Shown: positions 14,322-51,300, counted from the first letter of the stretch. The stretch is DNA of 64,000 nt from Verrucomicrobiota bacterium (GCA_030605125.1 JAUWBD010000003.1:1-64000), one strand, 5' to 3'. Notes: generated by a model from the sequence alone, not told the origin. Made by a program: numbers and translations.

Positions 14322-14372
14322 CGCCCGGTTCACGCCCGCCCGCGACGCCCAAAACTTCGCGCCTCCCGCCCC

Positions 14373-17300
14373 ATGCGCCTCGCCTCCGCCGCCGCCCTCG
14401 CCCTCGCCGCCCTCATCGCGCCGCTCGCCTCCGCGCAGTGGCGCCCCGTCAACTTCACCCACGCCGAGCTGCGCGCCAAAGGCACGCTCACCGGCGACGG
14501 TTGCCAGTGGTTCCGCGCCCTCGCCATCGCGCCCACCAACGGCGACTTCATGCTCTGGTGCACCGACGTCGGCGGCCTCTTCCGCTCCCTCGACGGCGGC
14601 CGCAACTGGGAGCCTGCCAACGTCGGCTTCCACTCCCGCGGCTCCGCCGCCGTCGCCATCGATCCGCACAACGCCGACCGCGTCCTCGTCGTCGCCGCCA
14701 ACTCCGTCCCCACCGAGCGCAACGGCCTCTACCTCTCCACCGACCGCGCCGCCTCCTGGCAACAGGTCCTCCCGGTGAAAATGTCCGCCACGCGCGACAT
14801 GCGCCGCCAGATCGCCTTCGATCCCTCCACCTACGACTCCGCGCAACACCTCACCCGCGTCGTCTATTGGTCGCGCCTCGACAACGACACGCCCCACAAC
14901 CCCGCCTGGGGCGAGACCGTGCGCGACCCCGGCTTCTACAAGTCCACCGACGGCGGCGAGACCTGGGCCCGCGTCCGCGGCGGCGAGCTCGTCGCCGACG
15001 CCGAGATCGCCGTGCATCCAAAGCGTGGATACGTCTATGCCGCCACGCCCAAGGGCCTGCACGTCTCCCGCGACGGCGGCTCCACCTGGACCCTCGTCCT
15101 CCCCGGCCGCCCCACCGGCCTCGACGTCTCCCCCGCCGCGCCCGACTCCGTCTGGGTGAGCTTCGCCGACCGCGTGCTCCGCTCCGACGATTCCGGCGCC
15201 ACCTTCTCGCCCATCGCCGGCGCGCAGAGCCTACGCGCCGATCGCGCCACGCTGCGCAATCTCGCCGTCTCGCCCTCCGACCCCGCGCGCCTCGTCCTCT
15301 ACCGCGAGGGCGCCCACTGGGACTGGCCCCGCTTCACCTCGCACGACGGTGGCGCCACCTGGACGCGCGCCACGATCCACCGCGACCGCGTCATCGTGCC
15401 CACCAACTCCCGCCAGGGCCGCTTCGCCTTCCACCCCACCAACCCCGACATCATCCTCGCCCCCGGCGGCGACTACCCGATGCTCTCGCGCGACGGTGGC
15501 CGCAGCTACACCCTCGCCGGCAACGGCGTGAACAACATCTACGTCGGCGGCGCCTTCAACTTCAGCGCCGTCGATCCCGACGTCCTCTACCTCGGCTCGC
15601 AGGACTACGCCACGCTCCTCACCACCGACGGCGGCCAAAACTGGACCTACCTCGAGCCCGGCCAGAAAGGCTGGGGCGGCTACAACTACGCCACCTACGC
15701 CTCCACCGCCGACGCCCTCCTCGCCGGCGAAGCCGAGCACTGGGGCGGCCCCAGTCGCCGCGCCGTCTCGCACGACCGCGGCCGCACCTGGCGCATCGCC
15801 CGCGAAACCATCGAGCCGAAGTTCACCTACGGCGACCCGCGCGACCCGAAGATCCTCTTCGCCGGCAACCAGCGCTCGACCGACGGCGGCCGGAGCTGGT
15901 CCACGATGAACAACGCCACCAGCGTGCGCACCCACGACCACGCCTCCGGCACGCTCTACGGCGTGCGCGAGGGCAAGGACCGCCCCTCCGTCGTCGTGTT
16001 CTCCTCGGACCGCGGCGCCTCCTGGCGCGACCTCTTCACCGTCCCCGGCCAGGTGGACGACCTCGCCGTGGACCCGCAGCGCCAGCGCGTCTATGTCGCC
16101 CGCGGCGGTCGCCTCTACCAGTGGGAACGCGGCACGAAGGATCTCATCGAGCTCTTCGGCTTCGTGCACGATCAGGACGGCCCGCCGCACGTGCGATCGG
16201 TCGCCGTCGATCCGGTTGACACCTCCGTCGTCTATCTCGCGGGCAACCGAAACGTCTTCGCGAGCGACGCCAGCGCGCAACGCTCGCGCGACGGCGGCGT
16301 CACCTGGGAGAACCTCACCCGCACCACCGCGCTCGACGGCGTCGGCCTCGACGGCGGCCGCGAGGCGCACTTCGTCCGCGTGCACCCCAAGACTCGCGAG
16401 GCCTGGTTCGCCACCAACTGCTACGGCGTCTGGATCCACTCCGCCCCGTTGGGTCGCCGCTCGTCGGCGACCGCGCCCGCGTTTCGCCCCCTTCGCCACC
16501 GAACTTTCTGTCTCCGCCTCCCTCCCCACCGCTCCATGGATCACGTCCCGCCGCCGCTCCCCTTCACCGACTCCTCCGGCACCGGCGCCTGGATCAACCT
16601 CGCGCAGCCTCGCGAGCAAACCATCAGCCCCGGCTCCTTCACCGTCACCGACTGGCTGAGCGCCGACTTCTACAACCCCCATCCAGTCATCCTCCAGCTA
16701 CGCCTCTCCTTCCTCGCCGAGGACTCCGGACGCGCCGCCGAGGTGATCTTCGGCCTCTATCCTCAGGTGCACGCGCGCCTGCGCATCCCGGCCGACGCCC
16801 TCGCGCAAAACGCCTGGCTGCTCCCCCGCGAGGCCGCCCTTCTCAAGCCCATGTGCGGCGGGGACATCGTCCGCCCCGAGGAGGTCACGCGTCTCCGCCT
16901 CGAACTCCTCGCCGGCCCCGAAGCCGCCGCCGACGGCACGCCACCCGGCTTCTGGGCCACGCCCTTCACCCTCTCCGCCACCGCGCCCGCCAAGCTCCAC
17001 CACCCCGCCTCCGCGCACGCCGCCCTGCTCGACGATCTCGGCCAAAGCGCCCACGCCTCCTGGCCGGGCAAGACGCCCGATGCCGACACGCTCGTGCGCC
17101 GGCTCCGCGAGGATCTCGCCCGCGCCGACACCGAGACCTTCCCCTCGCACTGGACCCGCTGGGGCGGCTCCGCCACGCACCGTTTCGCGGCCACCGGCTG
17201 GTTCCGCACCCACCACGACGGCCGCCGCTGGTGGCTCGTCGATCCCGATGGCGGCGCCTTCTGGTCCACCGGCCCCTGCTGCGCCTCGCCGCTCGTCGAG

Positions 17301-18533
17301 GCCGCCATCGAGGACCTCGACCACCTCCTCGCCTGGACCCCGCCCGCCGACGATCCGCACTGGGCCGACGCCCGCCTCCTTCGCACGTCCGGCACCTTCC
17401 GCGGCCGCGGCGTGAACTACCTCGCCGCCAACCTCCTTCGCGCCTTCGGGCCCGCCGACTGGCGCGCCGCCTGGCGCCGCATCGCCGCCGCGGCTCTCCG
17501 CCGCCAGCGCTTCAACACCATCGCCAACTGGTCCGACCTCGCGCTCGGCCGCGAATCGCGCATCCCCTACACCCGCCCCCTGCGCGACCTCTCCTCGCTC
17601 TCCGTCCCGAAGCTCTTCCGCGACTTCCCCGACGTCCACCACCCCGGCTTCCCCGCCGCCTGCGCCGTATGGGCGGAGCAACTACGCGACACCCGCGACA
17701 ACCCCGCCTTCCTCGGCTACTTCATCTGCAACGAGCCCACCTGGGCCATCGCCAAGCTCTCCCCCGCCGCCGGCATGCTCGCCAACACCGACGAGGCCGC
17801 CGCCCGCACCGAGTTCGCCGCCTGGCTGCGCGCCCGCCACCGCGACGACGCCGCGCTCGCCGCCGCCTGGGACGCGCCCGCCGCCAGTTTCTCCCTCGTG
17901 GCCGCCGGTCGTTGGCCGCGCCTGCCCGCCTCGGCCGGCTTCGTCGCCGACACCGAGGCCTTCTCCGGCCTCATGGCCGCCCGACTCTTCGACGCCCTGG
18001 GCGCCGCCTGCCGCACCGTCGATCCCCACCACCTCAACCTCGGCGCGCGCTTCGCCCACCTCCCCGCATCCTGGATGCGGGAGGCCTTCGGCACCTTCGA
18101 CGTCTTCAGCTTCAACTCCTACAGCAAGCGCCCCCGCGCCGCCGCCGCCGAGGTCTCCGCGCTCTTGCACAAGCCCGTGCTCATCGGCGAGTGGCACTTC
18201 GGCGCCACCGACACCGGCTTCCCCGCCGCCGCGCTCGAGACCGTCGCCACCCAGCGCGACCGCGCCCTCGCCTACCGCCGCTACCTCGAGGCCCACGCCG
18301 CCGCGCCTTGGTGCGTCGGCGCGCATTGGTTTACCCTCTACGACCAGAGCGCCCTCGGCCGCTTCGACGGCGAGCCCTACAACTGCGGCTTCTACGACGT
18401 CTGCCACCGCGAGCAGGCCGAGATCGCCGCCGCCGCCCGCGCCTCGCACGAAAGCCTTTACGACATCGCCGCCGGCACCCGCCCGCCCGACGAGCTCCCC
18501 ACCCCGCGCCACCTTCCGCGCCTGAGCCTGTAG
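14373..18533 (+). CDS. Apparent fusion: secreted GH74-like BNR propeller (about 14373-16448) + agarase/GH50-like TIM-barrel glycoside hydrolase (about 16536-18533)
   Basis: N-terminal two thirds align with the 42449-44554 protein until ...WFATNCYGVWIHSAP, where the paralog stops. Here the frame continues into GWFRTHHDGRRWWLVDPDGGAFWSTGPCC...ICNEPTWA...PVLIGEWHFG. In-frame ATG at 16536 could start a separate gene. Confidence 0.75.
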   Translation: MRLASAAALALAALIAPLASAQWRPVNFTHAELRAKGTLTGDGCQWFRALAIAPTNGDFMLWCTDVGGLFRSLDGGRNWEPANVGFHSRGSAAVAIDPHNADRVLVVAANSVPTERNGLYLSTDRAASWQQVLPVKMSATRDMRRQIAFDPSTYDSAQHLTRVVYWSRLDNDTPHNPAWGETVRDPGFYKSTDGGETWARVRGGELVADAEIAVHPKRGYVYAATPKGLHVSRDGGSTWTLVLPGRPTGLDVSPAAPDSVWVSFADRVLRSDDSGATFSPIAGAQSLRADRATLRNLAVSPSDPARLVLYREGAHWDWPRFTSHDGGATWTRATIHRDRVIVPTNSRQGRFAFHPTNPDIILAPGGDYPMLSRDGGRSYTLAGNGVNNIYVGGAFNFSAVDPDVLYLGSQDYATLLTTDGGQNWTYLEPGQKGWGGYNYATYASTADALLAGEAEHWGGPSRRAVSHDRGRTWRIARETIEPKFTYGDPRDPKILFAGNQRSTDGGRSWSTMNNATSVRTHDHASGTLYGVREGKDRPSVVVFSSDRGASWRDLFTVPGQVDDLAVDPQRQRVYVARGGRLYQWERGTKDLIELFGFVHDQDGPPHVRSVAVDPVDTSVVYLAGNRNVFASDASAQRSRDGGVTWENLTRTTALDGVGLDGGREAHFVRVHPKTREAWFATNCYGVWIHSAPLGRRSSATAPAFRPLRHRTFCLRLPPHRSMDHVPPPLPFTDSSGTGAWINLAQPREQTISPGSFTVTDWLSADFYNPHPVILQLRLSFLAEDSGRAAEVIFGLYPQVHARLRIPADALAQNAWLLPREAALLKPMCGGDIVRPEEVTRLRLELLAGPEAAADGTPPGFWATPFTLSATAPAKLHHPASAHAALLDDLGQSAHASWPGKTPDADTLVRRLREDLARADTETFPSHWTRWGGSATHRFAATGWFRTHHDGRRWWLVDPDGGAFWSTGPCCASPLVEAAIEDLDHLLAWTPPADDPHWADARLLRTSGTFRGRGVNYLAANLLRAFGPADWRAAWRRIAAAALRRQRFNTIANWSDLALGRESRIPYTRPLRDLSSLSVPKLFRDFPDVHHPGFPAACAVWAEQLRDTRDNPAFLGYFICNEPTWAIAKLSPAAGMLANTDEAAARTEFAAWLRARHRDDAALAAAWDAPAASFSLVAAGRWPRLPASAGFVADTEAFSGLMAARLFDALGAACRTVDPHHLNLGARFAHLPASWMREAFGTFDVFSFNSYSKRPRAAAAEVSALLHKPVLIGEWHFGATDTGFPAAALETVATQRDRALAYRRYLEAHAAAPWCVGAHWFTLYDQSALGRFDGEPYNCGFYDVCHREQAEIAAAARASHESLYDIAAGTRPPDELPTPRHLPRLSL
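16448..16495. repeat. Partial, in-frame copy of the GTAGGGTCGTCGC palindromic repeat
   Basis: GTTGGGTCGCCGCTCGTCGGCGACCGCGCCCGCGTTTCGCCCC matches the left half of copies at 25471, 32481 and 51225. Confidence 0.65.
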
Positions 18534-18688: not shown

Positions 18689-21600
18689 ATGTCTTCCATC
18701 GGATACTGCCCCGCTTCCGCCTCTCGCGTTTCTCGCGCCGCCACGTCTGCACTGCTCGCCGCCTTTTCTGCCGCCGGCCTCCAGTTTGCCGTCCCGTCCC
18801 TCTCCGCCCAGATCCAGTGGGCCAACACCGGCACCGACTGGGGCACCGGCTCCAACTGGATCGGCAACAGCGTCCCCACCGACACGAGCGTGGCTCGTCT
18901 CTACAACACCGGCGCCTCGGGCGCCAACCTCTACGTCACCCCCGTGGTCACCGGCTCCTACGGCGTGCTCGGCCTCGACTTCAGGATGTCCAACGCGACG
19001 TTCAACAGCACCCAGTCCGTGAGCATCAACCGCGGCGCGGGCGCTTCGCAGCTCACCATCGGAAGCAGCGGCATCATCACGGACAACGCGTCCGCCACCG
19101 CGACGATCCACACCGACCTCGTCATCGCCGCCAACCAAACCTGGAACACCGGCTCCGGCTCCACGCTCACGATCGGCTCCGCCGGCACGCTCACCAACAG
19201 CGGCAACTTCACCATCACCAAGCAGGGGAGCGGCAACCTCAACCTCAACGCCAACCTCAACAACTTCACCGGCGGCATCAACATATCCGGCGGCGTGCTT
19301 CAGTTCGGCACGAGTTCCACCTACGGCGGCGTCATCCAAGGCTCCGGCGGCATCTGGGTCGGCAGCGGCGTCCTCACCCTCCGCGGGGCCAACACCTACA
19401 GCGGCCAGACCAACATCACCGTCGGCACCGTGCGCGTCGCCTCCATCGGCAACACCGGCGCCACCAGCAGCACCCTGGGCACCAACTCCACGATCCGCCT
19501 CGGCACCACGACCTTCACCGGCGTCCTCGAATACACCGGGCTCGGCGAATCCACCAACCGCACCTTCGACCTCGCCGGCGGCACCGGCGCCAGCACCACC
19601 GGCGGCGCCACCATCAGCAACCTCGGCTTCGGCACGCTCACCCTCGCCGGCCCGATCACGAGCGCCGCGGCCAGCAACAGCACCAACGTCCTCAACCTCC
19701 TCGGCAACGTCACCCTCGCCACCGGCCTCAACAACGCGGGCAACGGCGGCGCGACCCGGCTGAACGTCGTCGGCGGCTCCGGCGCCACCACGATCCAGGC
19801 GGCCAGCAACTTCAGCGGCGGCATCCTCGGCAACCGCGGCGGCACGCTCGTCGTGGACTACGCGGCCGGCGGCACGCTCAACAGCGCCAACAACGTCACC
19901 TTCACCAACGGCGGCAACCTCCGGCTCAACGGTATCAGCTCCGGCACTACGCAGACGCTCGGCAACCTCGGCTTTCAGGACGGCGCCAACCACGTGGCGC
20001 TCAACAACACCGCCCTCACCCTCGGCACCCTCACCCGCACCACCGGCATCGACTCCTACGTCCTCTTCGACCTCTCCAACAGCGGCTCGCTCCGCGCGGT
20101 CACCAACGGCGCCGCCGGCTCCCTCGTGGACCACGTGATCGTCGGCGGCACCGCCAGCACCAACCTCGCCGGCTTCCTCGTCCGCACCGCTTCCGGCGGG
20201 ATCGACTTCGCCAGCGCCGCGTCCGCCTCCGCCACCGCGCAGGACATCATCCCGCTCGGCTCCAGCATCGCGTCGGGCGCTTTCAGCACCTTCACCGGCA
20301 CCAGCACCGGCAACACCGTCAACGGCCGCATCAGCTCCAACGGCACCACCAGCGTCGGCAGCGCCCAGACCCTCGGCACCCTGCGCGTGGACACCACCAG
20401 CGCCGCCGGCGGCACGCTTCAGATCAACAGCGGCACGCTCACCGTCGCCAAGAACGCCATCATCTTCGACGGCACCGGCAACTACACCATCGGCGGCAAC
20501 GGCACCCTCTCCGCCATCAATCTCTACCAATACAGCAGCGGCACGGTCACCCTCTCCACGGCCGGCATCGGCAACCGCATCGCCAAGTTCGGCCCCGGCC
20601 TGCTCATTAACAACAGCAACAGCACCTTCGGCTCCAGCGGCGCCAACTCGGTCGCCGTCTTCGAGGGCGTTTATCGCGCCGGCACCGCCAACTCGCTTTC
20701 CCTCGGCCGCATCAACCTCGGCACCGGCGGCGTCCTCGAGCTCACCAGCGGCTCCGGCGACCTCACCCGCTCGCTCGGCACCACCGGCACCAACGTCAAC
20801 TTCATCGGCGACGGCGGATTCAGCGCCTTCGGCGGAAATCGCTTTGTCGCCCTCGGCGGCGCCGCCACCCCGACCAACCTCGTCTGGAGCAGCACGGGAA
20901 GCTTCCTGCAGAACGGCAACCGCCTCATCCTGAGCAGCACGACCTCGGACAGCACGATCGATTTCCGAAACTCGATCGACTTCAACGGCGTTCAGCGCGA
21001 GGTCAGCGTGGGCAACGGCTCCGCCACCGTGGACGCCATCCTGAGCGGCACGCTCGGCAGCGCCACCTACGCGGGCGGCGGGCTCTTCAAGAGCGGCGCC
21101 GGCACCCTGGCCCTCACCGGCACCAACACCTACACCGGCCTCACCACGATCTCCGCCGGCCAGCTCAACCTCGGCAACGGCGGCACCACCGGCTCCATCG
21201 TCGGCAACGTCACCAACGACGGCATCCTTGGCTTCAACCGCTCCGACGCCCTCTCCTACGCCGGAGTGATCAGCGGCAGCGGCTCGGTGGTCCAGCTCGG
21301 CACCGGCTCCACCATTCTCACCGGCGCGCACACCTACTCCGGCGGCACCACCGTCACGGCCGGCGCGTTGTTCGTGAACGGCTCGCTTGGCACCGGCCCG
21401 GTCACGGTCTCCGGCGGCACTCTCGCCGGCTCCGGCACCATCAATGGCGCCACCACGATCCAGGCGGGCGGCCTGCTCGCTCCCGGCAACTCGCCCGGCA
21501 CGCTCACCTTCACCAACGGCCTCACCATCTCGGGCACCTACGCCTGGGAACTCGGCGCGCTCAGCGTGGACGACCCCGGCGTGAACTTCGACCGGATCGT

Positions 21601-21922
21601 CGTCACCGGCGGGGCCGTCAATGTCGCGGGCGCCTCGCTCAGCCTCGGCCTCGGCGCCTTCGCCCCCTCGGCCGACGCGTTCTGGGCCGGCAACCGTTCG
21701 TGGACCATCCTCGACGCCAGCGGCGCCACCTCCGTCGCCGGCACCTTCTCCATCACCAACGACCAGTCGGGCTGGAGCGAGTGGGGTTCCTTCAGCGCGA
21801 TCACGACCAGCACCGGCGTGGACCTCCAGTGGACCGCCGTGATCCCCGAGCCCTCCGCCTTCGCCGGCCTCGCCGGCCTCGGCGCCCTCGGCTTCGCCGC
21901 CCTCCGCCGCCGCCGTCGCTAA
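18689..21922 (+). CDS. Autotransporter-associated beta-strand repeat protein with PEP-CTERM sorting signal
   Basis: Repeats such as GGGLFKSGAGTLALTGTNTYTGLTTISAGQLNLGNGG; C-terminus VIPEPSAFAGLAGLGALGFAALRRRRR. Confidence 0.9.
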   Translation: MSSIGYCPASASRVSRAATSALLAAFSAAGLQFAVPSLSAQIQWANTGTDWGTGSNWIGNSVPTDTSVARLYNTGASGANLYVTPVVTGSYGVLGLDFRMSNATFNSTQSVSINRGAGASQLTIGSSGIITDNASATATIHTDLVIAANQTWNTGSGSTLTIGSAGTLTNSGNFTITKQGSGNLNLNANLNNFTGGINISGGVLQFGTSSTYGGVIQGSGGIWVGSGVLTLRGANTYSGQTNITVGTVRVASIGNTGATSSTLGTNSTIRLGTTTFTGVLEYTGLGESTNRTFDLAGGTGASTTGGATISNLGFGTLTLAGPITSAAASNSTNVLNLLGNVTLATGLNNAGNGGATRLNVVGGSGATTIQAASNFSGGILGNRGGTLVVDYAAGGTLNSANNVTFTNGGNLRLNGISSGTTQTLGNLGFQDGANHVALNNTALTLGTLTRTTGIDSYVLFDLSNSGSLRAVTNGAAGSLVDHVIVGGTASTNLAGFLVRTASGGIDFASAASASATAQDIIPLGSSIASGAFSTFTGTSTGNTVNGRISSNGTTSVGSAQTLGTLRVDTTSAAGGTLQINSGTLTVAKNAIIFDGTGNYTIGGNGTLSAINLYQYSSGTVTLSTAGIGNRIAKFGPGLLINNSNSTFGSSGANSVAVFEGVYRAGTANSLSLGRINLGTGGVLELTSGSGDLTRSLGTTGTNVNFIGDGGFSAFGGNRFVALGGAATPTNLVWSSTGSFLQNGNRLILSSTTSDSTIDFRNSIDFNGVQREVSVGNGSATVDAILSGTLGSATYAGGGLFKSGAGTLALTGTNTYTGLTTISAGQLNLGNGGTTGSIVGNVTNDGILGFNRSDALSYAGVISGSGSVVQLGTGSTILTGAHTYSGGTTVTAGALFVNGSLGTGPVTVSGGTLAGSGTINGATTIQAGGLLAPGNSPGTLTFTNGLTISGTYAWELGALSVDDPGVNFDRIVVTGGAVNVAGASLSLGLGAFAPSADAFWAGNRSWTILDASGATSVAGTFSITNDQSGWSEWGSFSAITTSTGVDLQWTAVIPEPSAFAGLAGLGALGFAALRRRRR

Positions 21923-23059: not shown

Positions 23060-25474
23060 GTGTCGTCGCCCATGCAAACCCGCTCCGAAACCCACGATGT
23101 CATCGTCTGCGGCGGAGGCCTCGCCGGCTTCTGCGCCGCCGTCGCCGCCGCCCGCCACGGCGCCAAGGTCGCCCTCGTCCAGGACCGCCCCGTCCTCGGC
23201 GGCAACGCCTCCTCCGAAATCTGCGTCACCGTGCACGGCGCCGCCGGCTTCCACGCCTACTCCCGCGAGACCGGCATCCTCTCCGAGATCCTCATCGAGG
23301 AGCGCGCCCGCAACCACGCCGAGATCAATGAAAACGGCTGGACCAACTCCGTCTTCGACCAGGTCCTCTACGACCTCGCCCGGCGCACGCCCAATCTCAC
23401 CGTCCACCTCAACACCGCGGTGCACGACGTGCTCCTCGGCAACGACGAGATCAGCGGTCTCGCCGACGAGGCCCGCCGCCCCCAACCCGACACCACCCAC
23501 GGCTACTACCGCCGCCCGCCCTGCGCCCCGCGCCGCCGCATCGCCGCCGTCGTCGCCCGCGTCGCCAACGCCGAGCTCGAGCTCACCCTCCGCGGCAAGA
23601 CCTTCATCGACTGCACCGGCGACGGCCTCGTCGCCCACCTCGCCGGTTGCGGCTGGAAAATGGGCAGCGAGAGCAAGGAGCAGACCGGCGAGGTCCACGC
23701 GCCGGCCAAGGCCTCGACCAACACGATGGGCAACTCCATCCACATCCGCGCCCGCGACATCGGCCGCCCCGCGCCCTACACCCCGCCGAGCTGGATCAAG
23801 AAGATCCCCGACGCAGATTTCTTCCACAAGCGCGGCCGCGGCCTCTACGACCTGCGCGGCGGCTTCTGGTGGATCGAGATCGGCATGCCCTGGCACACCA
23901 TCCACGACAACGAGACCATCCGCGGCGAACTCACCGCCTGGGCGCTCGCCGTCTGGGACTGGATCAAGAACCACGACGAAACCACCAAGCACCGCGCGAC
24001 GAACTACGCCCTCGACTGGATCGGCCAGGTGCCGGGCAAGCGCGAGAGCCGCCGCATCGACGGCCTCTATGAGTTCAACGAACACGACATCCAGGCCAAC
24101 ATCGCGCTCCCCGACGAGATCGCCTACGGCGGCTGGTTCGTGGACCTGCACACGCCCGGCGGCCTGCTCGCCGAGCACAGCGAGCCCATGGCCGGCGAAG
24201 GTTACCAGGCCGACAGCGAATACGGAGCCAAGTCCTACGTCGGCCCCTACGGCGTGCCGCTCCGTTCGCACATCGCCGCCGACCTCGACAACCTACTCCT
24301 CGCGGGGCGCTGTCTCTCCGCGACCCACGCCGCGCTCGGCACCGTGCGCGTCATGGCCACCGTCGCGCTCGTCGGCCAGGCCGTCGGCACCGGCGCCGCC
24401 CTCGCCCTCGAGAAACAGCTCCCGCTCTCCGCCCTCCCCGAGGCGCCCCACATCGCCGAGCTCCAGCAACGCCTCCTGCGCGACGGCTGCTTCCTGCCCA
24501 ACCTCCGCCACCAAGACGCCGCCGACCTCGCCCGCACCGCCCGCGTCTCCGCCTCGTCCCACGCCCTCAGCCACGGCGTCGGCCCCGACGATCCCACGCA
24601 GCTCGGCGACATCGGCTGGGGCTCCGGCGCCGCCGGTCTGCCCAAGGGCTCCGCCTCCTGGCCTCTGAACCGCCTCGCCGCCCAATGGATCGCCGTCTCC
24701 GGCGGCCGCCTCGACCGCGTCTCCGCCTGCCTCGACAACCTCACCGGCGCGCCGCGCACGATCCGCGCCCGCCTCACCCGCCCCGAGCACATCTGGGACT
24801 ACCGCCGCGAGCTGCCCCTCCTCGCCGAGACCACGCTCACCGTGCCCGTCGGCGAGAAACGCTGGATCGAGTGGCCCGTCGCCCTCGCCGCCCTGCCCGA
24901 CGGCTTCGTTCGCCTCGAGCTCGTGGCCGAGAGTCCGGAGGCCGCGCCCGGCTGGCGCTCCTCGCGCCGCATCCTGCAAGGCCAGCTCGCCGCCTGGGCG
25001 ATGAGCCCGAAAAAACTCCGCCGCCTCGATCCCGGACTCAGCTTGGCCTTCCGCGTCGAGCCGCCCCAGCCGGTTTATGGCCCCGAGCAGGTGCTCAGCG
25101 GTGTCACCCGCCCGCACCGCGCCACCAACCTCTGGCGTTCCGATCCGGGCCAGCCGCTCCCGCAGTGGCTCGAGTTGTCCTGGCCCGAGCGCCGCACGAT
25201 CCGCGAGGTGCAGCTCACCTTCCCTGGACACCTGCTGCGCGAGATCCACGCCTACCCGCCCTTCTTCCGCGACCCGCAGACGCCGCGCGACTACGTGATC
25301 GAGGCCTGGGTGGACGACGCCTGGCGCGAGGTGCACGTGGAAAAAGGCAATTACCAACGCCTCCGCCGGCACACCTTTCCCGCGCCCGTCACCACAAAAC
25401 GGATACGCGTGGTCGTGCAAGCCACCAACGGCGACGCCAGCGCGATGATCTACGAGGTCCGCTGCCACGTGTAG
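23060..25474 (+). CDS. FAD-dependent oxidoreductase with C-terminal discoidin-like domain
   Basis: HDVIVCGGGLAGFCAAVAAARHGAKVALVQDRPVLGGNASSEI (FAD_oxidored-type Rossmann motif); C-terminal ATNLWRSDPGQPLPQWLELSWPERRTIREVQLTF...RIRVVVQATNGDASAMIYEVRCHV. ATG at 23072 is an alternative start. Confidence 0.85.
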   Translation: MSSPMQTRSETHDVIVCGGGLAGFCAAVAAARHGAKVALVQDRPVLGGNASSEICVTVHGAAGFHAYSRETGILSEILIEERARNHAEINENGWTNSVFDQVLYDLARRTPNLTVHLNTAVHDVLLGNDEISGLADEARRPQPDTTHGYYRRPPCAPRRRIAAVVARVANAELELTLRGKTFIDCTGDGLVAHLAGCGWKMGSESKEQTGEVHAPAKASTNTMGNSIHIRARDIGRPAPYTPPSWIKKIPDADFFHKRGRGLYDLRGGFWWIEIGMPWHTIHDNETIRGELTAWALAVWDWIKNHDETTKHRATNYALDWIGQVPGKRESRRIDGLYEFNEHDIQANIALPDEIAYGGWFVDLHTPGGLLAEHSEPMAGEGYQADSEYGAKSYVGPYGVPLRSHIAADLDNLLLAGRCLSATHAALGTVRVMATVALVGQAVGTGAALALEKQLPLSALPEAPHIAELQQRLLRDGCFLPNLRHQDAADLARTARVSASSHALSHGVGPDDPTQLGDIGWGSGAAGLPKGSASWPLNRLAAQWIAVSGGRLDRVSACLDNLTGAPRTIRARLTRPEHIWDYRRELPLLAETTLTVPVGEKRWIEWPVALAALPDGFVRLELVAESPEAAPGWRSSRRILQGQLAAWAMSPKKLRRLDPGLSLAFRVEPPQPVYGPEQVLSGVTRPHRATNLWRSDPGQPLPQWLELSWPERRTIREVQLTFPGHLLREIHAYPPFFRDPQTPRDYVIEAWVDDAWREVHVEKGNYQRLRRHTFPAPVTTKRIRVVVQATNGDASAMIYEVRCHV

Positions 25475-25551
25475 GGTCGTCGCTTGCGACGACCGCGTCC
25501 GCGTTGCGGCCCCACGCGCCAATCCGGCATTCGCAAGCGAACGCCCTACAC
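25471..25551. repeat. About 80-bp palindromic intergenic repeat (copy A, full length)
   Basis: GTAGGGTCGTCGCTTGCGACGACCGCGTCCGCG...GGCATTCGCAAGCGAACGCCCTAC; outer ends GTAGGG/CCCTAC inverted, internal 8-bp hairpin GTCGTCGC-TT-GCGACGAC. Confidence 0.85.
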
Positions 25552-27839: not shown

Positions 27840-29474
27840 ATGATTCAGGTGCTTCCTCCTCGCTCCGCCGGCGTCGTCTACACCAAGCCTTGGATGGTCG
27901 CACTCGTCCTTGATCTAGCCGGCTACACCCCGGATCGCCCCTTGGCTAGTATGGTTGCGGTTGAACCTTCCGCAGGAGACGGGGCCTTTTTGCAGGAGAT
28001 GACCCGCCGGCTAGTTTGGTCGGCCAAGCGGCACGGGACGCCATTGAGTCAAGCCCGGGACGCCATACGAGCGTTCGAAATAGCCCCCCCCGCCGCCGCC
28101 GCCGCCGTCGCAGCCACCGAGGCCACGCTTCTAGATCTGGGCGTTGATGCTCATCTGGCCGCCTCACTAGCAGCCTCTTGGATTAAAACAGGCGACTTCC
28201 TCGAGGCTTCGCTTGGGTTTCCGTTCGCCGATTTCGTGGTCGGAAACCCTCCCTACATTCGTCTTGAGGAGATACCACCGGAGAAAGCGGCTTTCTACCG
28301 CTCATTTAGCGCCATGCGTGGCCGCGCTGATCTCTACGTCGCATTTTATCAGGCGGCACTCCTTCAGCTAAAGCCGGGTGGAGTCTGCGGATTCATCTGC
28401 GCGGACCGGTGGATGCTTAATGATTACGGTAGTGCCCTCCGGAAATTCATAACCACTCAAGGCTACGCGGTCCGCATCTTGATCGAGGCTCACACCGTGG
28501 ACGCCTTCGCGACCGAAGTCTCCGCCTACCCGGCGGTGACCATCCTAGCCCATGCGCCGCAGGAAAGTGTAGTGGTTGCCAAAGCACTGCCCGGCATCGA
28601 GACCGTTCCGACCACTGAAGTTCTCAAGCATCTTTCCGGAGCCGAATCTGCTCCTTGGCTCCGGGCCGCTCGTTTCCCCGATTGGTTCAAAGGCGAGGAG
28701 CCATGGCCTTGTTCCTCCCCGGAGACGCTGAAGCTACTCAAGCATTTGGAGGCGACTTGCCTTCCCCTGGAGACGGAGGCGACCGGAACCAAGATAGGCA
28801 TAGGCGTCGCCAGTGGCGCCGACCGCATCTTCATCACCGCGCCGCACACGACTCCTGACATCGAACCCGAGCGTCTGCTACCGCTGGCCATGGCCTCCGA
28901 TCTCCGTGATGGTCGAGTTGCCTGGTCTGGCCGCCACCTCGTGAATCCGTGGAACGAGCAAGGGCTGGTAAACCCCGATGACTTTCCGCGTTTCTCGGCT
29001 CACCTGCGGCCGCATCACCTGCTGCTTCGATCCCGTCACACGGCGAAAGAACGACCGCAGCACTGGCATAAAACCATTGATCGTGTGAACCTGTCCCTCC
29101 TGCGTCGGGAAAAGCTCTACATCGCGGATATTAAGGAGCGCTTGCTGCCCGCTTTCGACGAAGGTCGCACGTATCCTCACCATAACCTCTATTGGATTAC
29201 TTCCACAACGTGGGATCTTCGCGTGCTGGGCGCCTTGCTCATGTCAGCTGTAGGCGAGTTTTTCATTCGCTGCTATGCCGTGCGCATGCGCGGTGGCAGC
29301 CTCCGCTTCCAAGCCCAATACCTTCGCCGCATTCGCGTGCCACCGCCTAGCTGGATAACACCTGAACTCGCCGTCACGCTTCGCCGCGCATTCGAGACCC
29401 AAGACCGCGCTTTGGCGAACGAGGCCGCCTTGCAGGCCTATCGACTGGATAGTCTTCCTCCGCTTCCACAATGA
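27840..29474 (+). CDS. Eco57I-like/gamma-class N6-adenine DNA methyltransferase (type II)
   Basis: VVYTKPWMVALVLDLAGY, VEPSAGDGAF (SAM motif), FADFVVGNPPYIRLEEI (NPPY), GRADLYVAFYQAALLQLKPGGVCGFICADRWMLNDYGSALRKFI. Confidence 0.88.
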   Translation: MIQVLPPRSAGVVYTKPWMVALVLDLAGYTPDRPLASMVAVEPSAGDGAFLQEMTRRLVWSAKRHGTPLSQARDAIRAFEIAPPAAAAAVAATEATLLDLGVDAHLAASLAASWIKTGDFLEASLGFPFADFVVGNPPYIRLEEIPPEKAAFYRSFSAMRGRADLYVAFYQAALLQLKPGGVCGFICADRWMLNDYGSALRKFITTQGYAVRILIEAHTVDAFATEVSAYPAVTILAHAPQESVVVAKALPGIETVPTTEVLKHLSGAESAPWLRAARFPDWFKGEEPWPCSSPETLKLLKHLEATCLPLETEATGTKIGIGVASGADRIFITAPHTTPDIEPERLLPLAMASDLRDGRVAWSGRHLVNPWNEQGLVNPDDFPRFSAHLRPHHLLLRSRHTAKERPQHWHKTIDRVNLSLLRREKLYIADIKERLLPAFDEGRTYPHHNLYWITSTTWDLRVLGALLMSAVGEFFIRCYAVRMRGGSLRFQAQYLRRIRVPPPSWITPELAVTLRRAFETQDRALANEAALQAYRLDSLPPLPQ

Positions 29475-30286
29475 ATTCGCCCTCTCCCGAGACGCAGCTC
29501 TTTCACAAAGCCGTGAAGCATTGGTGGGCTTCGAAAAAATCTGCCAAACCTCGAAAGCGCGCCCAGGGGGGCACCCGGGACGCCAACCTCCACGGGAAGA
29601 CCATGGACGGCTTTGCGCTCGTGCTTCGCGACTACCTTGTCGAACTCGGTGTGAGGCCGGAACACATCTTCGCGGGCGGGCACCTGACAAAAACGCCGTC
29701 TATTCTCCCGTCTTACTTCCGCCCCTCGAAGAACTGGGACTTGGTGGTGATCGCGAACAGTCGCTTCCACTCCGCTCCAGGCGATTCCGGTGTTCCAGTT
29801 CTCTACGCCGCCATCGAGTTCAAGTCGCAGGACAAAAGCATCGGGAACAACCAAAACAACCGCTTGGAAGAAAGCATCGGCAACGCACATGATTTCTGGA
29901 CCACCTACGCTTGCTCCGGCTTTGAGCGTCTGCAGCCCCGCCCCTGGCTCGGGTATCTTTTCGTTGGCAACTACGAGCCCTCTACCGACAGCAAGCCGGT
30001 CCAGATTTCGCAGCCGCACTTTCGTGCGCACGAGGCCTTTCGCCGCGAAGGCAGCGAACTGCAGGAGAGGTTTTCCGGTCCTTCTTACGCCGAGCGCTAT
30101 CAGCTTTTTCTCAAGCAAAGTGTCGGCGCGCGGCTTTACGACGCGGGAGCTTTTATCGTGACGGACGAATCGCTTGCGAAGAAAACGCCGAATCACCGGA
30201 TTCCGCTTCCCGAGTTCGGGCCTGAGAATTTTCTGCGCAGCCTAAAAGCCCAAATTCTGGCTCACTACCCGCTAAAACTAAGGTAA
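29471..30286 (+). CDS. PaeR7I/XhoI-family type II restriction endonuclease (CTCGAG predicted)
   Basis: NLHGKTMDGFALVLRDYL, SYFRPSKNWDLVVI, AAIEFKSQDKSIGNNQNNRLEESIGNAHDFWTTY, GPSYAERYQLFLKQSVGARLYDAGAFIVTD resemble PaeR7I as I recall it. ATGA overlap with the methyltransferase. Confidence 0.85.
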   Translation: MNSPSPETQLFHKAVKHWWASKKSAKPRKRAQGGTRDANLHGKTMDGFALVLRDYLVELGVRPEHIFAGGHLTKTPSILPSYFRPSKNWDLVVIANSRFHSAPGDSGVPVLYAAIEFKSQDKSIGNNQNNRLEESIGNAHDFWTTYACSGFERLQPRPWLGYLFVGNYEPSTDSKPVQISQPHFRAHEAFRREGSELQERFSGPSYAERYQLFLKQSVGARLYDAGAFIVTDESLAKKTPNHRIPLPEFGPENFLRSLKAQILAHYPLKLR

Positions 30287-31200: not shown

Positions 31201-32481
31201 ATGTCCGCCCTCGCCTCCCAAATCGCCCTGCTCCGCAAAACCATCACGCGCGACTACACCGCCATGCTCCGCGAGCCCGGCGGCGTCCTAAAGCATCCCT
31301 TCATCGTGCCCGGCAGCGCGCAGTATCTCGACCAGCTCTGGGACTGGGACTCCTGGCTCACCAACGTCGCCCTGCGCCAGATCGTGCTCGAGCACCCCGA
31401 CTCCGCCGCCGCCGGCCAGCACCTCGCCGCCTACGAGCGCGGCTGCATCCTCAACTTTCTCTCCACCACCGGCTGGCACGGCTGGATGCCCATCATGCTC
31501 CCGCGCGAAGGCGCCCCGCGCCCCGCCGATCCCTACTCGACCAACATGCACAAGCCCGTGATCGCCCAGCACGCGGCCTTCCTCGTGCAGCAGTCGGGCG
31601 GCGACGCCGAGTGGCTCCGCGAACACTTCTTCGGCATCCAGGCCTTTCTTAACAACTACCGCACCCACCACCGCCACCAGGCCACCGGCCTCTACTTCTG
31701 GCAGGACGACGCCTGCATCGGCGGCGACAACGACCCCTGCACCTACGGCCGCCCGCCGCGCAGCTCCGGCGCGATTTTCCTGAACTCGCTCACGTATCGC
31801 GAGCTCCTCGGCGCCGAATACATCGCCAAGCAGCTCGGCCAGGTGGAGGTCGCCGCCGCCCTCGGCAAGGACGCCGCCCAGCTCCTTGCCGCCATCCGCG
31901 AGCACTGCTGGGACGAGTGGACGGGCAACTATTACTCCGTGGACCTCAACGTCCGCCATCACTCCAAGGCCCCTCGCGACGACGGTCTCCCACTCCACGC
32001 CGGCCTCGCGCAAGACTGGCACTGCCTCATCCAGCGCGTCGGCGTTTGGTCCTGCTTCCTCCCGCTCTGGGCCGGCATCGCCACGCCCGAGCAGGCGCAG
32101 CGCATGGTCCGCGAGCACTTGCTCGACCCGCGCACCTTCAACGCCCCCGCCGGCATCCGCTCCCTCTCCAAGATGGAGAAGCAGTATTCCATCCGCGCCT
32201 CGGGCAACCCGTCCTCCTGGCTCGGCCCGATCTGGGGCGTGGTCAACTACATGATCTTCCGCGGCCTCGTCCGCTACGGCCTCGAGGCCGAGGCGCGCGA
32301 GCTTTGCGACAAGACCATCGCCCTCTACGCCCGCGACGTGGAGCGCTTCGGCGATTTCCACGAATACTACGAGCCCGAGACCGGCGAGCCGCTCCTCAAC
32401 CGCGGCTTCCAGAACTGGAACTACCTCGTCCTCAACATGGCCGCCTGGCGCGAAGGCCGTCCCTTCGTGACGGAGTTCTAG
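31201..32481 (+). CDS. MGH1/GH63/trehalase-like glycoside hydrolase
   Basis: KHPFIVPGSAQYLDQLWDWDSWLTNVALRQIVLEHPDS; SSWLGPIWGVVNYMIFRGLVRYG; (alpha/alpha)6-type clan G pattern. Confidence 0.8.
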   Translation: MSALASQIALLRKTITRDYTAMLREPGGVLKHPFIVPGSAQYLDQLWDWDSWLTNVALRQIVLEHPDSAAAGQHLAAYERGCILNFLSTTGWHGWMPIMLPREGAPRPADPYSTNMHKPVIAQHAAFLVQQSGGDAEWLREHFFGIQAFLNNYRTHHRHQATGLYFWQDDACIGGDNDPCTYGRPPRSSGAIFLNSLTYRELLGAEYIAKQLGQVEVAAALGKDAAQLLAAIREHCWDEWTGNYYSVDLNVRHHSKAPRDDGLPLHAGLAQDWHCLIQRVGVWSCFLPLWAGIATPEQAQRMVREHLLDPRTFNAPAGIRSLSKMEKQYSIRASGNPSSWLGPIWGVVNYMIFRGLVRYGLEAEARELCDKTIALYARDVERFGDFHEYYEPETGEPLLNRGFQNWNYLVLNMAAWREGRPFVTEF

Positions 32482-32559
32482 TAGGGTCGTCGCTTGCGAC
32501 GACCGCGCCCGCGTTTCGCCCCACTCGCCGAGCTGGCATTCGCAAGCGAACGCCCTACA
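32481..32559. repeat. About 80-bp palindromic intergenic repeat (copy B)
   Basis: GTAGGGTCGTCGCTTGCGACGACCGCGCCCGCGTTTCGCCCC...GGCATTCGCAAGCGAACGCCCTACA. Confidence 0.85.
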
Positions 32560-34322: not shown

Positions 34323-34432
34323 GGAGAGGGCACGCCCCGTGCCCTCAGCGTCGCCTCTCCGCACCGCGCCACTCCGCCGCAACGGGCGTGAGGGCACGCC
34401 CGCTCCGTTCGATCACGGCGCGCTCACCCGCA
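34323..34432. repeat. Direct repeat unit 2 of 2, overlapping the 3' end of the minus-strand BNR gene
   Basis: Second copy of the 34166 unit; its GATCACG contains the TGA stop (34413-34415) of the minus-strand gene. Confidence 0.8.
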
Positions 34433-37400
34433 GACGCAGGAAACGCCGCGGCTCGGCGCCCGCCGCCATCATATCGGACACCGTGACCTGTTGCCCGACC
34501 GCGCCCGGATTGGTCGCGATCGCGGTCCAGTTCACCAAGTCCGAGCTCGCCTCGACAAAATAAGTCACGTCGGCCGCGTCGCGCTCGCGACGGAAACTCA
34601 GCGCCACCCGGCCGTCCTGCCCCGTCGCCACCACCGGCAGGCGCGCGGTCGCGTCGGCCACGTGCGGATTCCCGCCCAGCGCAAACTCGAGCAGGTTCGA
34701 CATGCCGTCCTCATCCGGGTCGGCGAGGTCGAGCGACTCCTCCGTGGGCAGCGGATGGCCAAACTCGGCGCGACGCCACGCCTCCATCGCGGTGTCCGCC
34801 CGCACCGTGAGCGTGACCGGGATGTTCACCGCGGGCAGAGCGCCCGAGAGCGGCTGCACCGTGAGCGTGCTCGTATAGGTGCCCGGCGCGCGATCGATGG
34901 AGGAAAAGGTGAGCACGTGGTCCTGCGTCGCCCCGGCCGCGAGATCGATGTTGGCCGAGAGCGGAAGCGCCCACTGGGACAGCGGACGCAGCCGCAGCGC
35001 CCGCCCCGCCGCGATCGCGGACGTGTTGTGGGAAAACTGGTGGAAGCGGGAGCGATCGGAGTTTTGCGCGCCGATCGTGTAGGTGAGGTTGGTGAACACG
35101 GCGCTGCTGGCGTAGGTGACGAGGATGTCGCCCGACGAGGAGAGCTTCACCTGCAGGTCCACCTGCGCCGGGGTGTTGTTGCCGTTCTGCCGCACCGCCG
35201 TGTATTGCATCACGAAAGTGTCGGGCGTCGGTCGCCGGAAGTAGGCGCGCGAGGCGGGCGTGCGGTTGTTGTAGAGGCGAAGGTCATCCCAGAGGAAAAA
35301 GATGCTCGCGCCAAAGGTGGGCGCGGGCAGCGCCACGTTGGCGGAGGTGGCGGTGCCGGGGCGCGAGCCGAAGTGGAGCGTGCCGTTGCTCGACACCCAC
35401 ACGCCGGTGTAGGTCTCGCCAAAGAGCGGAAAGGTGAAGCCGAGGGGGATCGCGCCCTGCGCGCCGCTCTGGCCGTTCACGTATTGGGTGGTGGTGTCGT
35501 TCTGGTTGTTGAGCTCGGTGATGCCCACGGTGCCGGTCTGGCCGACGAGGTCGCTCCAGACGTAGGCGGGCTTGTCGGCGTCGGTGGAGTTGGAGGTCGA
35601 GGCGGTGTAGCCGATCGTGCCCGGCAGGGTGGCGCGAAAGGTCTGGGACAGCGCGGTCGTGTTGGTGATGGTGAGCGGGTAGCCGAGGCTCACGCCCACG
35701 GGCAGGCTCACGTGGATCGGCGTGGAGTCCACGGCGGCGACGAAATCAGGCGGAGCGAGTTTCCACAGGCCGTAGCAGTTGGTCGCGAACCAGGCGTGGC
35801 GCGTGGTGGGGTGAACGCGCACCCAGGTCGCCTCGCTCGGGCCCTGGCGGCGGCCGTCGGTGGGCGCGGCGCGCAGAGTGAGGTTTTCCCAACTCGCGCC
35901 GCCATCGAGCGAACGGATCACCGAGTTGTCCGCGCGGTAGGTGTCGCGCGAAGAGCCGAGGTAGAGGATGTTCGGGTCGGTCGGGTCCACCGCGACGGTG
36001 TTGATGCGGGCGCGGCCGCTGAAGAGCCCCGTATCATTCGGCGGATACGGCGAGGCGAGCACGGGCGTGGTGCCGAGGCCGTTCACGTCGAGCGTGGTGA
36101 ACATCAGGTCGCGCGTCTGGTTGGTGTTGAGGTTCTCGACCGTGATCCAGGCGCGGCGGCGCACGTGGTCGTAGGCGCAGTCGAGGATGCGGCCGGAAGC
36201 CGTCGCGACCACGGCCCAGGTGGCGCCCTTGTCGGCGGAGCGCACGAGCTGCGAGCCGCCGGTGATGCGCGCGGTGCCAAAGAGCGCGCCGGTGAGGGGA
36301 TCGTGCGTGAGCACGCCGTGGCACTTCACGAGGTGCTCGGCGGCGGTCATGTCGGCCCAGGTGGCGCCGCCGTCGGTCGAGCGCCAGTTGGAGGCGAAGA
36401 GGGTTTTCGAGTCGCCGGGCGCGCTCGTGCAGATGTCGAGGCCCGTGAAGGTGAGGCCGGTGCTGACCCAGGAGCCGTTGCGAAAAACGCGGAGCGTGCG
36501 CGTGCCGCCCCAGCTGGTGGCATTGCCGCCGAAGCGGATGCCGGCCGTGGACGCGTGCGCGCCGTAGATGTAGCCGCCCCAGCCGTTGCCCGACATGTTG
36601 AGGTAGGTCCAGGTGAGGCCGCCGTTGGTGCTGAGCGAGGCGTCGTAGTCCTGGGTGCCGATCATCACCACGTCGGGATTGGTCGGCGAAAAGGTGAAGG
36701 CGCTGCCGAGCATGATGCCGTTGTAGCCGTTGGCGCTCCACGCGAAGGTGGCGCCGCCATCGACACTGCGCGTCACCCAGTCGCCGCCCTCGGCCCAGGC
36801 CTGGCTGGCCACCCAGACGAAGGGAGTGGGGCGGCCGTTGTAGGGCAGGAAGGCGTTTTGGTGGTTGAAGACGATCTGCGTCCAGGTGGCGCCGCCGTTG
36901 CGGGTCGAGAAGGCGCGGTTGTCGTAGTATTGGCCGCGCCAGCGGTTCACGAGGATCTGCTGCGGGTTCTCGGGGTTGACCGCGATGTGGGTGAGGTTGT
37001 CACCGGTCTGGAAGGAAAAGCCCGAGGAGGTCGGGATGGGCGCGAAGGTCACGCCATCATCGGTCGAAACCTGGATCGTCTGGCCCTCGGTGATATAGAC
37101 GGTGCCGGGCGCGACGAACTCGCCGGACGGCGGGGCGGAGAGGCCGCGCACGTGGTTGGCGCGGCGTTGCACGAAGGTGACACCGAAGTCGTCGCTGGTG
37201 TAGAAGCCGGTCGAGTTGGCGAAGTAGAGGCGGCCGTTGGCGCGGTTCACGCCGAGGTGGCCGCGGGTGAAGGCGGCGTTGACCACGGCCCACGTTTGCC
37301 CGCCGTCGTCGCTGCGATGGAGGCCGGTGCTGCCGCCGGAGAAGTAGGCGCGGCGGCTGCGGCCGTCGGTCAGCTTCGTCGTCGGGTCGAAGACGAGGTT

Positions 37401-37847
37401 GCCGATCTCCTCGGTCTCGCGCGATTGGGCGAGCACGCGCGTCCAGGTGAGGCCGCGGTCGCGACTCAGATACACGCCCGTGGTGTTGTTGTGGAAATCG
37501 TTCTTCGAGCCGCCGAGGACGAGGATGTTCTCCGGCGCGGCGGGATCGAAGGCGATCGCGTAGCCGCCGCGCGCGCGAAAGCCGATGTTGGCCGGCTCCC
37601 AGTTGATGCCGTCGAAGCTGCGGAAGAGCCCGCCGACATCGGTGCCGAAGAGGTAGAGGCTGCCGTCCTCGGCCGCGCCGATGGACATGACTTGTTGCCC
37701 GCCCTCGCCGCCGGAGAAACCGCGGTCGCGGATGCCCTGGCTGACGAGCGGCAGGGGCTCCCAGCGCACGGATGCGTGGGCGCCGGCGGCAAGCGTGAGG
37801 CAAAAGCAGAGCAGAACGGCGATGGGGCGAAGGCCGAGCGGGGGCAT
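34413..37847 (-). CDS. Large BNR/GH74-like beta-propeller protein with C-terminal LEFALGGNP-type tail
   Basis: LFGTDVGGLFRSFDGINWEPANIGF, repeated SxDGGxTW; C-terminal DLADPDEDGMSNLLEFALGGNPHVADATARLPV...VTYFVEASSDLVNWTAI...RFLRLRVSAP. Confidence 0.8.
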   Translation of the reverse strand: MPPLGLRPIAVLLCFCLTLAAGAHASVRWEPLPLVSQGIRDRGFSGGEGGQQVMSIGAAEDGSLYLFGTDVGGLFRSFDGINWEPANIGFRARGGYAIAFDPAAPENILVLGGSKNDFHNNTTGVYLSRDRGLTWTRVLAQSRETEEIGNLVFDPTTKLTDGRSRRAYFSGGSTGLHRSDDGGQTWAVVNAAFTRGHLGVNRANGRLYFANSTGFYTSDDFGVTFVQRRANHVRGLSAPPSGEFVAPGTVYITEGQTIQVSTDDGVTFAPIPTSSGFSFQTGDNLTHIAVNPENPQQILVNRWRGQYYDNRAFSTRNGGATWTQIVFNHQNAFLPYNGRPTPFVWVASQAWAEGGDWVTRSVDGGATFAWSANGYNGIMLGSAFTFSPTNPDVVMIGTQDYDASLSTNGGLTWTYLNMSGNGWGGYIYGAHASTAGIRFGGNATSWGGTRTLRVFRNGSWVSTGLTFTGLDICTSAPGDSKTLFASNWRSTDGGATWADMTAAEHLVKCHGVLTHDPLTGALFGTARITGGSQLVRSADKGATWAVVATASGRILDCAYDHVRRRAWITVENLNTNQTRDLMFTTLDVNGLGTTPVLASPYPPNDTGLFSGRARINTVAVDPTDPNILYLGSSRDTYRADNSVIRSLDGGASWENLTLRAAPTDGRRQGPSEATWVRVHPTTRHAWFATNCYGLWKLAPPDFVAAVDSTPIHVSLPVGVSLGYPLTITNTTALSQTFRATLPGTIGYTASTSNSTDADKPAYVWSDLVGQTGTVGITELNNQNDTTTQYVNGQSGAQGAIPLGFTFPLFGETYTGVWVSSNGTLHFGSRPGTATSANVALPAPTFGASIFFLWDDLRLYNNRTPASRAYFRRPTPDTFVMQYTAVRQNGNNTPAQVDLQVKLSSSGDILVTYASSAVFTNLTYTIGAQNSDRSRFHQFSHNTSAIAAGRALRLRPLSQWALPLSANIDLAAGATQDHVLTFSSIDRAPGTYTSTLTVQPLSGALPAVNIPVTLTVRADTAMEAWRRAEFGHPLPTEESLDLADPDEDGMSNLLEFALGGNPHVADATARLPVVATGQDGRVALSFRRERDAADVTYFVEASSDLVNWTAIATNPGAVGQQVTVSDMMAAGAEPRRFLRLRVSAP

Positions 37848-51228: not shown

Positions 51229-51300
51229 GGTCGTCGCTCGCGACGACCGAGCCCGCGTTTCGCCCCCGCCCGCCCAACCCGGCATTCGCGAGCGAACGCC
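51225..51300. repeat. About 80-bp palindromic intergenic repeat (copy C)
   Basis: GTAAGGTCGTCGCTCGCGACGACCGAGCCCGCGTTTCGCCCC...GGCATTCGCGAGCGAACGCC; hairpin kept by compensatory TT->TC/GA-type changes. Confidence 0.8.

Follow-up and report, generated by a model that had tools for sequence, protein, structure and literature searches.

Organization of the locus

The stretch of DNA analysed here (64,000 nucleotides; hereafter the window) belongs to an uncultured Opitutaceae-type bacterium, the draft genome of which comprises 4.9 Mb in 271 contigs. On the plus strand, positions 14373–18533 constitute a single open frame of 1386 amino acids, which runs from ATG to TAG without any internal stop codon and consists of a propeller of 692 amino acids, 29 linker codons and a GH50-type hydrolase of 665 amino acids. 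At 16449–16451, where the stop codon of the propeller is expected, the frame reads TTG (Leu). A paralogous propeller in the same window (42449–44554, plus strand; 73% identical), orthologous to one in genome G013 (C47), ends ...CYGVWIHAAP-TAG. Both the end of the paralogue and the fused frame were found as given in a preliminary description of this DNA.

The window (1–64000) is a dense carbohydrate cluster, with GH42, melibiase-like, GH43, GH63/trehalase-like, GH125, GH38 and CE2-type esterase genes in addition to at least five Vps10/BNR propellers. Another of these propellers, on the minus strand at 34413–37847, carries a C-terminal extension of ∼447 amino acids without a Pfam family match, and a paralogue in G013 (C47) has an extension of equal length. 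Furthermore, a gene for an Eco57I-type methylase (PF07669) followed by one for an XhoI-type endonuclease (PF04555) lies inside the glycoside hydrolase cluster at 27840–30283. The GC content of this stretch is 59–62% versus about 70% around it, and the restriction-modification pair was probably acquired by transfer.

The propeller half of the fused frame (14373–16448, plus strand) starts with a signal peptide, MRLASAAALALAALIAPLASA, and contains Sortilin-Vps10/BNR repeats matching Pfam families PF15902 and PF02012. In its AlphaFold model (pLDDT 88), two seven-bladed propellers are predicted in the GH74 arrangement, and the top 25 PDB matches in Foldseek were all GH74 (TM by query 0.57–0.70), in agreement with the earlier designation of this half as GH74-like. 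The double-propeller size and fold are shared with the GH74 xyloglucanases (PDB 6p2l, 2cn2 and 1sqj), although the identity is just 14–19%. The candidate catalytic Asp65 (14565–14567) lies in a TDVGG motif that corresponds to TDIGG of these enzymes, with which it was aligned in 1sqj. This residue is invariant in our propeller alignment (A1); for the second catalytic Asp, D411 is a candidate only.

The hydrolase half (16536–18533, plus strand) is composed of an N-terminal beta domain followed by a GH50-type TIM barrel. None of the Pfam and NCBIfam models matched these last 665 residues. A phmmer search related them to 4bq2 (9e-48), a profile search with hmmsearch did so at 7e-140, and for the AlphaFold model (pLDDT 93) the top 17 Foldseek matches were all GH50, with E-values down to 1e-43. 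Upon alignment to GH50 PDB chains, NE of 4bq2 (NQ in 4bq4) fell on N399-E400 and IGEFH on G551-E552, pointing to Glu400 (17733–17735, plus strand) as the acid/base and Glu552 (18189–18191, plus strand) as the nucleophile; the pair is invariant in the hydrolase alignment (A2). The motifs ICNEPTWA and PVLIGEWHFG, as well as the in-frame ATG at 16536, are all present as previously noted. By its modelled barrel fold and its aligned catalytic Glu pair the hydrolase would thus qualify as a GH50 member, and the agarase/GH50-like label given to it before is borne out by the searches. The fold, the catalytic pair and the long profile match are common to the GH50 beta-agarases (PDB 4bq2, 5z6p, 6xj9 and 5t3b), at ∼22% identity over the fold. 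In contrast to these agarases, the hydrolase is found here without an agar context and without a signal peptide.

The signal peptide is indeed confined to the propeller, as the preliminary description had it, and none was seen on the hydrolase by itself. Likewise, the nearest hydrolases (those of the window, G013 and strain LW23) have no leader when read from their likely starts. The wider relatives are mixed, some distant ones carrying Tat- or Sec-like leaders as judged by eye. The context of the hydrolase start (16516–16538, plus strand) consists of 20 pyrimidine-rich nucleotides followed by the ATG, and lacks a Shine-Dalgarno sequence. The pyrimidine fraction of 0.85 before this ATG compares with a maximum of 0.75 among 94 internal in-frame ATGs, and such a context is typical of gene starts in the 64-kb window. 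Since a start-like context has been kept at 16536, a separate hydrolase product may persist, and synthesis of the hydrolase from this position beside the fused protein is plausible from the sequence context.

The junction and its REP element

The 29-codon linker LGRRSSATAPAFRPLRHRTFCLRLPPHRS (16449–16535, plus strand) was compared with genes and spacers of the window. Its GC content by codon position is 69/72/76, versus about 67/54/94 in the propeller. Its codon score is −0.51, as opposed to an in-gene minimum of −0.02 among all in-frame 29-codon stretches of three genes, and equals that of the window's spacers, many of them with every frame open. The linker has no coding GC signal and a spacer-like codon score, and therefore it is a former spacer; on the same two measures, a coding linker was rejected. 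The preliminary description, which had proposed about 28 codons of former intergenic DNA, was right as to the spacer origin, while the length is 29 codons. The linker is rich in Arg and unadapted, which would also fit a frame that has never been translated. No convincing homology was detected between the linker and the spacer that precedes the hydrolase in G013. Several genuine spacers of the window, 85–193 bp in length, have no stop codon in any frame. Spacers without stops are nothing unusual in this GC-rich part of the genome, so that in-frame read-through after the loss of a stop is not improbable; what is informative is the absence of the stop.

When the 87-base linker was searched against its own genome, 43 matches were obtained, nearly all of them to the first 30–50 bases. 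Over its first ∼35 bases, the linker represents one copy of a GTAG-type REP palindrome that is dispersed in the genome. This copy (16448–16485, plus strand) is composed of a mutated foot, GTTG (16448–16451), a perfect 8-bp stem, GGTCGCCG/CGGCGACC (16452–16459 and 16465–16472, plus strand), with the loop CTCGT, and the conserved tail GCGCCCGCGTTTC. The aligned copies have the form GTAGGGTCGYCGC-loop-stem-GCGCCCGCGTTTC, that is, a palindrome with a GTAG foot, and some are accompanied by an inverted second arm that ends in CCCTAC. Scanning the genome with a pattern in which the third base of the foot was left free returned 20 copies, 18 with GTAG, one with GTCG and the present one with GTTG; the reversed-pattern control gave no match in the genome. 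With a GTAG foot, a palindromic stem and multiple dispersed copies located mainly 3′ of genes, the repeat has the sequence hallmarks of GTAG REPs and appears to be one of them.

This element has its foot exactly where the stop is missing (CCG-T(A>T)G-GGT). As 18 of the 20 copies have a GTAG foot and the present one has GTTG, the stop that has been lost was very probably the TAG of the REP itself. Both the REP consensus, GTAGGG, and the CCG-TAG end of the paralogue, which is not followed by a REP, indicate that the codon at 16449–16451 very probably used to be TAG and that base 16450 changed from A to T. The point change from TAG to TTG had been proposed in the preliminary description; that account was incomplete in that the origin of the stop in a GTAG REP was missed.

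Other copies, too, have their foot at the end of a gene. Among the 19 other copies, the foot TAG serves as the stop of the adjoining coding run at five left and two right ends, and where a coding run was found beside a copy, the upstream stop lies within 0–22 nt. Within the window, the foot TAG of the copy at 25471–25487 (plus strand) is the stop of the gene at 23072–25474 (TAG at 25472–25474), the foot of the copy at 32481–32497 (plus strand) overlaps the last base of, and directly follows, the TAG stop of the gene at 31201–32481, and the copy at 51225–51248 (plus strand) has a GTAA foot, the TAA of which (51226–51228) is the stop of the gene at 45796–51228. In G013, the foot supplies the stop in two of the four copies read. 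The distribution of the GTAG REP in the genus is patchy: the exact 17-mer occurs in the genome of the window, G000 (18), and in G005 (8), G007 (5), G013 (5) and G012 (1), and in none of the other ten of the same genus. The genome has four Y1_Tnp (PF01797) matches as candidate RAYTs, and none of these has a copy of this REP within 1.5 kb.

According to the report by Di Nocera et al. (2013), the termini of GTAG REPs often supply TAG stops to flanking genes, and Opitutus terrae, also of the Verrucomicrobia, is rich in these elements (PMC3733652). The supply of stops by REPs is thus already known from that report. The short GTAG-foot palindrome, its dispersal, its location 3′ of genes and the use of the foot TAG as a stop are all common to the repeat described here, GTAGGGTCGYCGC..., which is likened to the GTAG REPs by their description. 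Unlike here, fusion through stop loss is not described in the passages of that report consulted (PMC3733652), and a narrow literature search found no account of a gene fusion by loss of a REP stop. The new part is that the lost stop very probably belonged to a REP element, as judged from the aligned copies.

Homologues and alternative explanations

If the frame arose through stop loss, unfused homologues should stop at the homologous position, and this is where the closest ones end, or one codon later. The C-terminal extensions of the four closest propeller homologues amount to 0, 0, 0 and 1 residue, versus 694 residues here. The paralogue ends at the homologous residue with TAG, the G013 orthologue does so with TGA, the G013 C47 propeller has no extension, and the C167 homologue ends one codon further on. 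Inspection of orthologues for a stop at 16449, as the preliminary description had suggested, thus agrees with a lost stop. More distant propeller homologues end after a few residues or bear other C-terminal modules, such as CBM96; among the propeller homologues, a hydrolase follows in frame only in the window. A fused form was detected in none of 252 family, 373 order and 388 phylum genomes (some 900 related genomes). Other large open frames (e.g. 1593 amino acids in G132 and 1571 in G412) were rejected, as the propeller query had no match in the loci examined. The G412 locus (L127, C387) has two GH50 matches on the same strand, both listed with one frame length of 1571 amino acids and one of them with an internal TAA, and possibly represents a tandem GH50 protein or tandem genes.

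In G013, which is of the same genus, the propeller orthologue (C94) shows 90% DNA identity over 14370–16447 only, which is the coding sequence without flanks. The hydrolase orthologue (78%) is located on a separate contig and has its own start; both orthologies are supported by the tree. Relative to G013, both halves are under purifying selection, with dN/dS values of 0.26 and 0.40, and the window branches are not lengthened (0.038 versus 0.08 and 0.12 versus 0.16). Strain LW23 carries a propeller (41%) with a TAA stop and then a 61% identical hydrolase in a different frame. A PATR-repeat gene with a PEP-CTERM-like tail directly follows the hydrolase in the window (18689–21922), while in G013 (L067, 2049–4820) a PATR-repeat/PEP-CTERM gene directly precedes it. 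This swapped order indicates that the neighbourhood was rearranged.

Taken as a whole, the origin of the frame is best explained by the point loss of a REP-borne stop that fused two neighbouring genes, an account that we consider probable. Conceivably, base 16450 could instead be an assembly or consensus error, an alternative already raised in the preliminary description, such that the genome has TAG at 16449–16451 and two ordinary genes with a REP-borne stop between them. The inferred ancestral state is just one base away, the homologues all stop at this position, the linker has no coding character, no second genome has the fusion, and the single base that bears the claim lies in a 271-contig draft, inside a repeat with ∼40 copies. 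There is also a precedent, since a stop-loss fusion in yeast proved to be an assembly error (PMC4494051). However, an error would have to fall precisely within a stop codon, which is expected in ∼1e-4 per gene if the consensus error is assumed to be 1e-5 to 1e-4 per base, whereas at a propeller dS of 0.24 to G013 a genuine stop change would be expected in ∼1e-2 per lineage, even under strong constraint (assumed rate). Moreover, exact identity to other REP copies extends over 24 bp only, and across the junction region the longest run of exact identity, common with the paralogue, is 38 bp; both are short for a misjoin. Lastly, 16 homologous stretches scanned in the same genome contain no internal stops. 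We regard such an error as unlikely. A rearrangement, in which the propeller gene was broken at its end, lost its stop and came to lie before the hydrolase, would account for the fact that DNA identity to G013 C94 ceases no more than one base from where the coding sequence ends, and for the swapped order of the hydrolase and its PATR/PEP-CTERM neighbour. Yet a breakpoint is not expected to keep the REP foot in register. The bases after the last propeller codon are those of the REP with its GTAGGG consensus, which leaves a single difference from an intact TAG, and in LW23 the two genes adjoin without being fused. These observations render a rearrangement very improbable. That the frame represents an old, selected family of bifunctional enzymes is scarcely credible: the C-terminal modules of distant propeller paralogues (e.g. 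CBM96) do imply that the fold tolerates additions, but fused homologues are absent from the family, order and phylum samples and the linker lacks a coding signature.

A further possibility takes the base change as real but silent in its consequence, as a neutral, recent polymorphism with a read-through protein that is inefficiently produced or is degraded, while the hydrolase is produced from 16536. This concerns the outcome rather than the origin of the frame, and our estimates for it and for the REP-borne stop loss cover overlapping statements. The start context at 16536 exceeds that of every internal ATG, the linker is unadapted, no C-terminal adaptation is visible, and a stem-loop directly follows the old stop; both this hairpin and the surviving start speak for separate products. 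On the other hand, the sequence holds nothing to halt a ribosome that began at 14373. The stem measures just 8 bp, the RNA structure of the whole junction is not unusually stable (z +1.2), and neither a transcription terminator nor a sigma-70 promoter was detected at the propeller-hydrolase junction. We view a silent change as possible but less likely than not. Together, these considerations lead us to a genuine and recent stop-loss fusion, in which the stop was part of a REP element, as the most likely reading.

Proposed course and meaning of the stop loss

According to this reading, the ancestor would have had a gene for a secreted GH74-like propeller and, 84 bp downstream of its stop codon and on the same strand, a gene for a GH50-type hydrolase without a signal peptide. 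The propeller gene would have had a GTAG-type REP at its 3′ end, with the TAG of the REP foot as the propeller stop. With the change from A to T at 16450, the foot would have become GTTG and the stop a TTG codon (Leu). As the remaining spacer is open and in frame, translation would now continue through the REP hairpin and the spacer into the hydrolase. Two neighbouring genes for glycoside-cutting enzymes would accordingly be read as one because a single base has changed in the intervening stop. The product would be a 1386-amino-acid pre-protein, the signal peptide of which would export the GH50 domain from the cytoplasm, a presumed change of location, and a second, cytoplasmic hydrolase would probably still be initiated at 16536.

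As in known stop-codon-loss extensions and fusions (e.g. PMC4494051), a spacer would have been turned into coding sequence by a point change. The present case differs in that the extension enters a whole downstream enzyme and in that the stop derives from a repeat element. Stop-loss fusions usually come to notice only when they are already old. Should the base be genuine, the present case would be nearly fresh, with the former stop, the spacer and the downstream start all still recognizable in the sequence.

In more general terms, we tentatively suggest, as an idea that is still doubtful, that the stop feet of REPs are latent fusion points, and that the event described here yielded a secreted two-domain enzyme of GH50 and GH74 type. 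One substitution in a GTAG foot would then both damage the end of the element and join two genes, and a cytoplasmic GH50 hydrolase would have acquired a GH74-type partner together with a signal peptide, a combination unseen in the other genomes searched. This idea predicts that, in GC-rich genomes whose spacers are open, recent C-terminal extensions and fusions would involve genes ending in a REP foot more often than expected.
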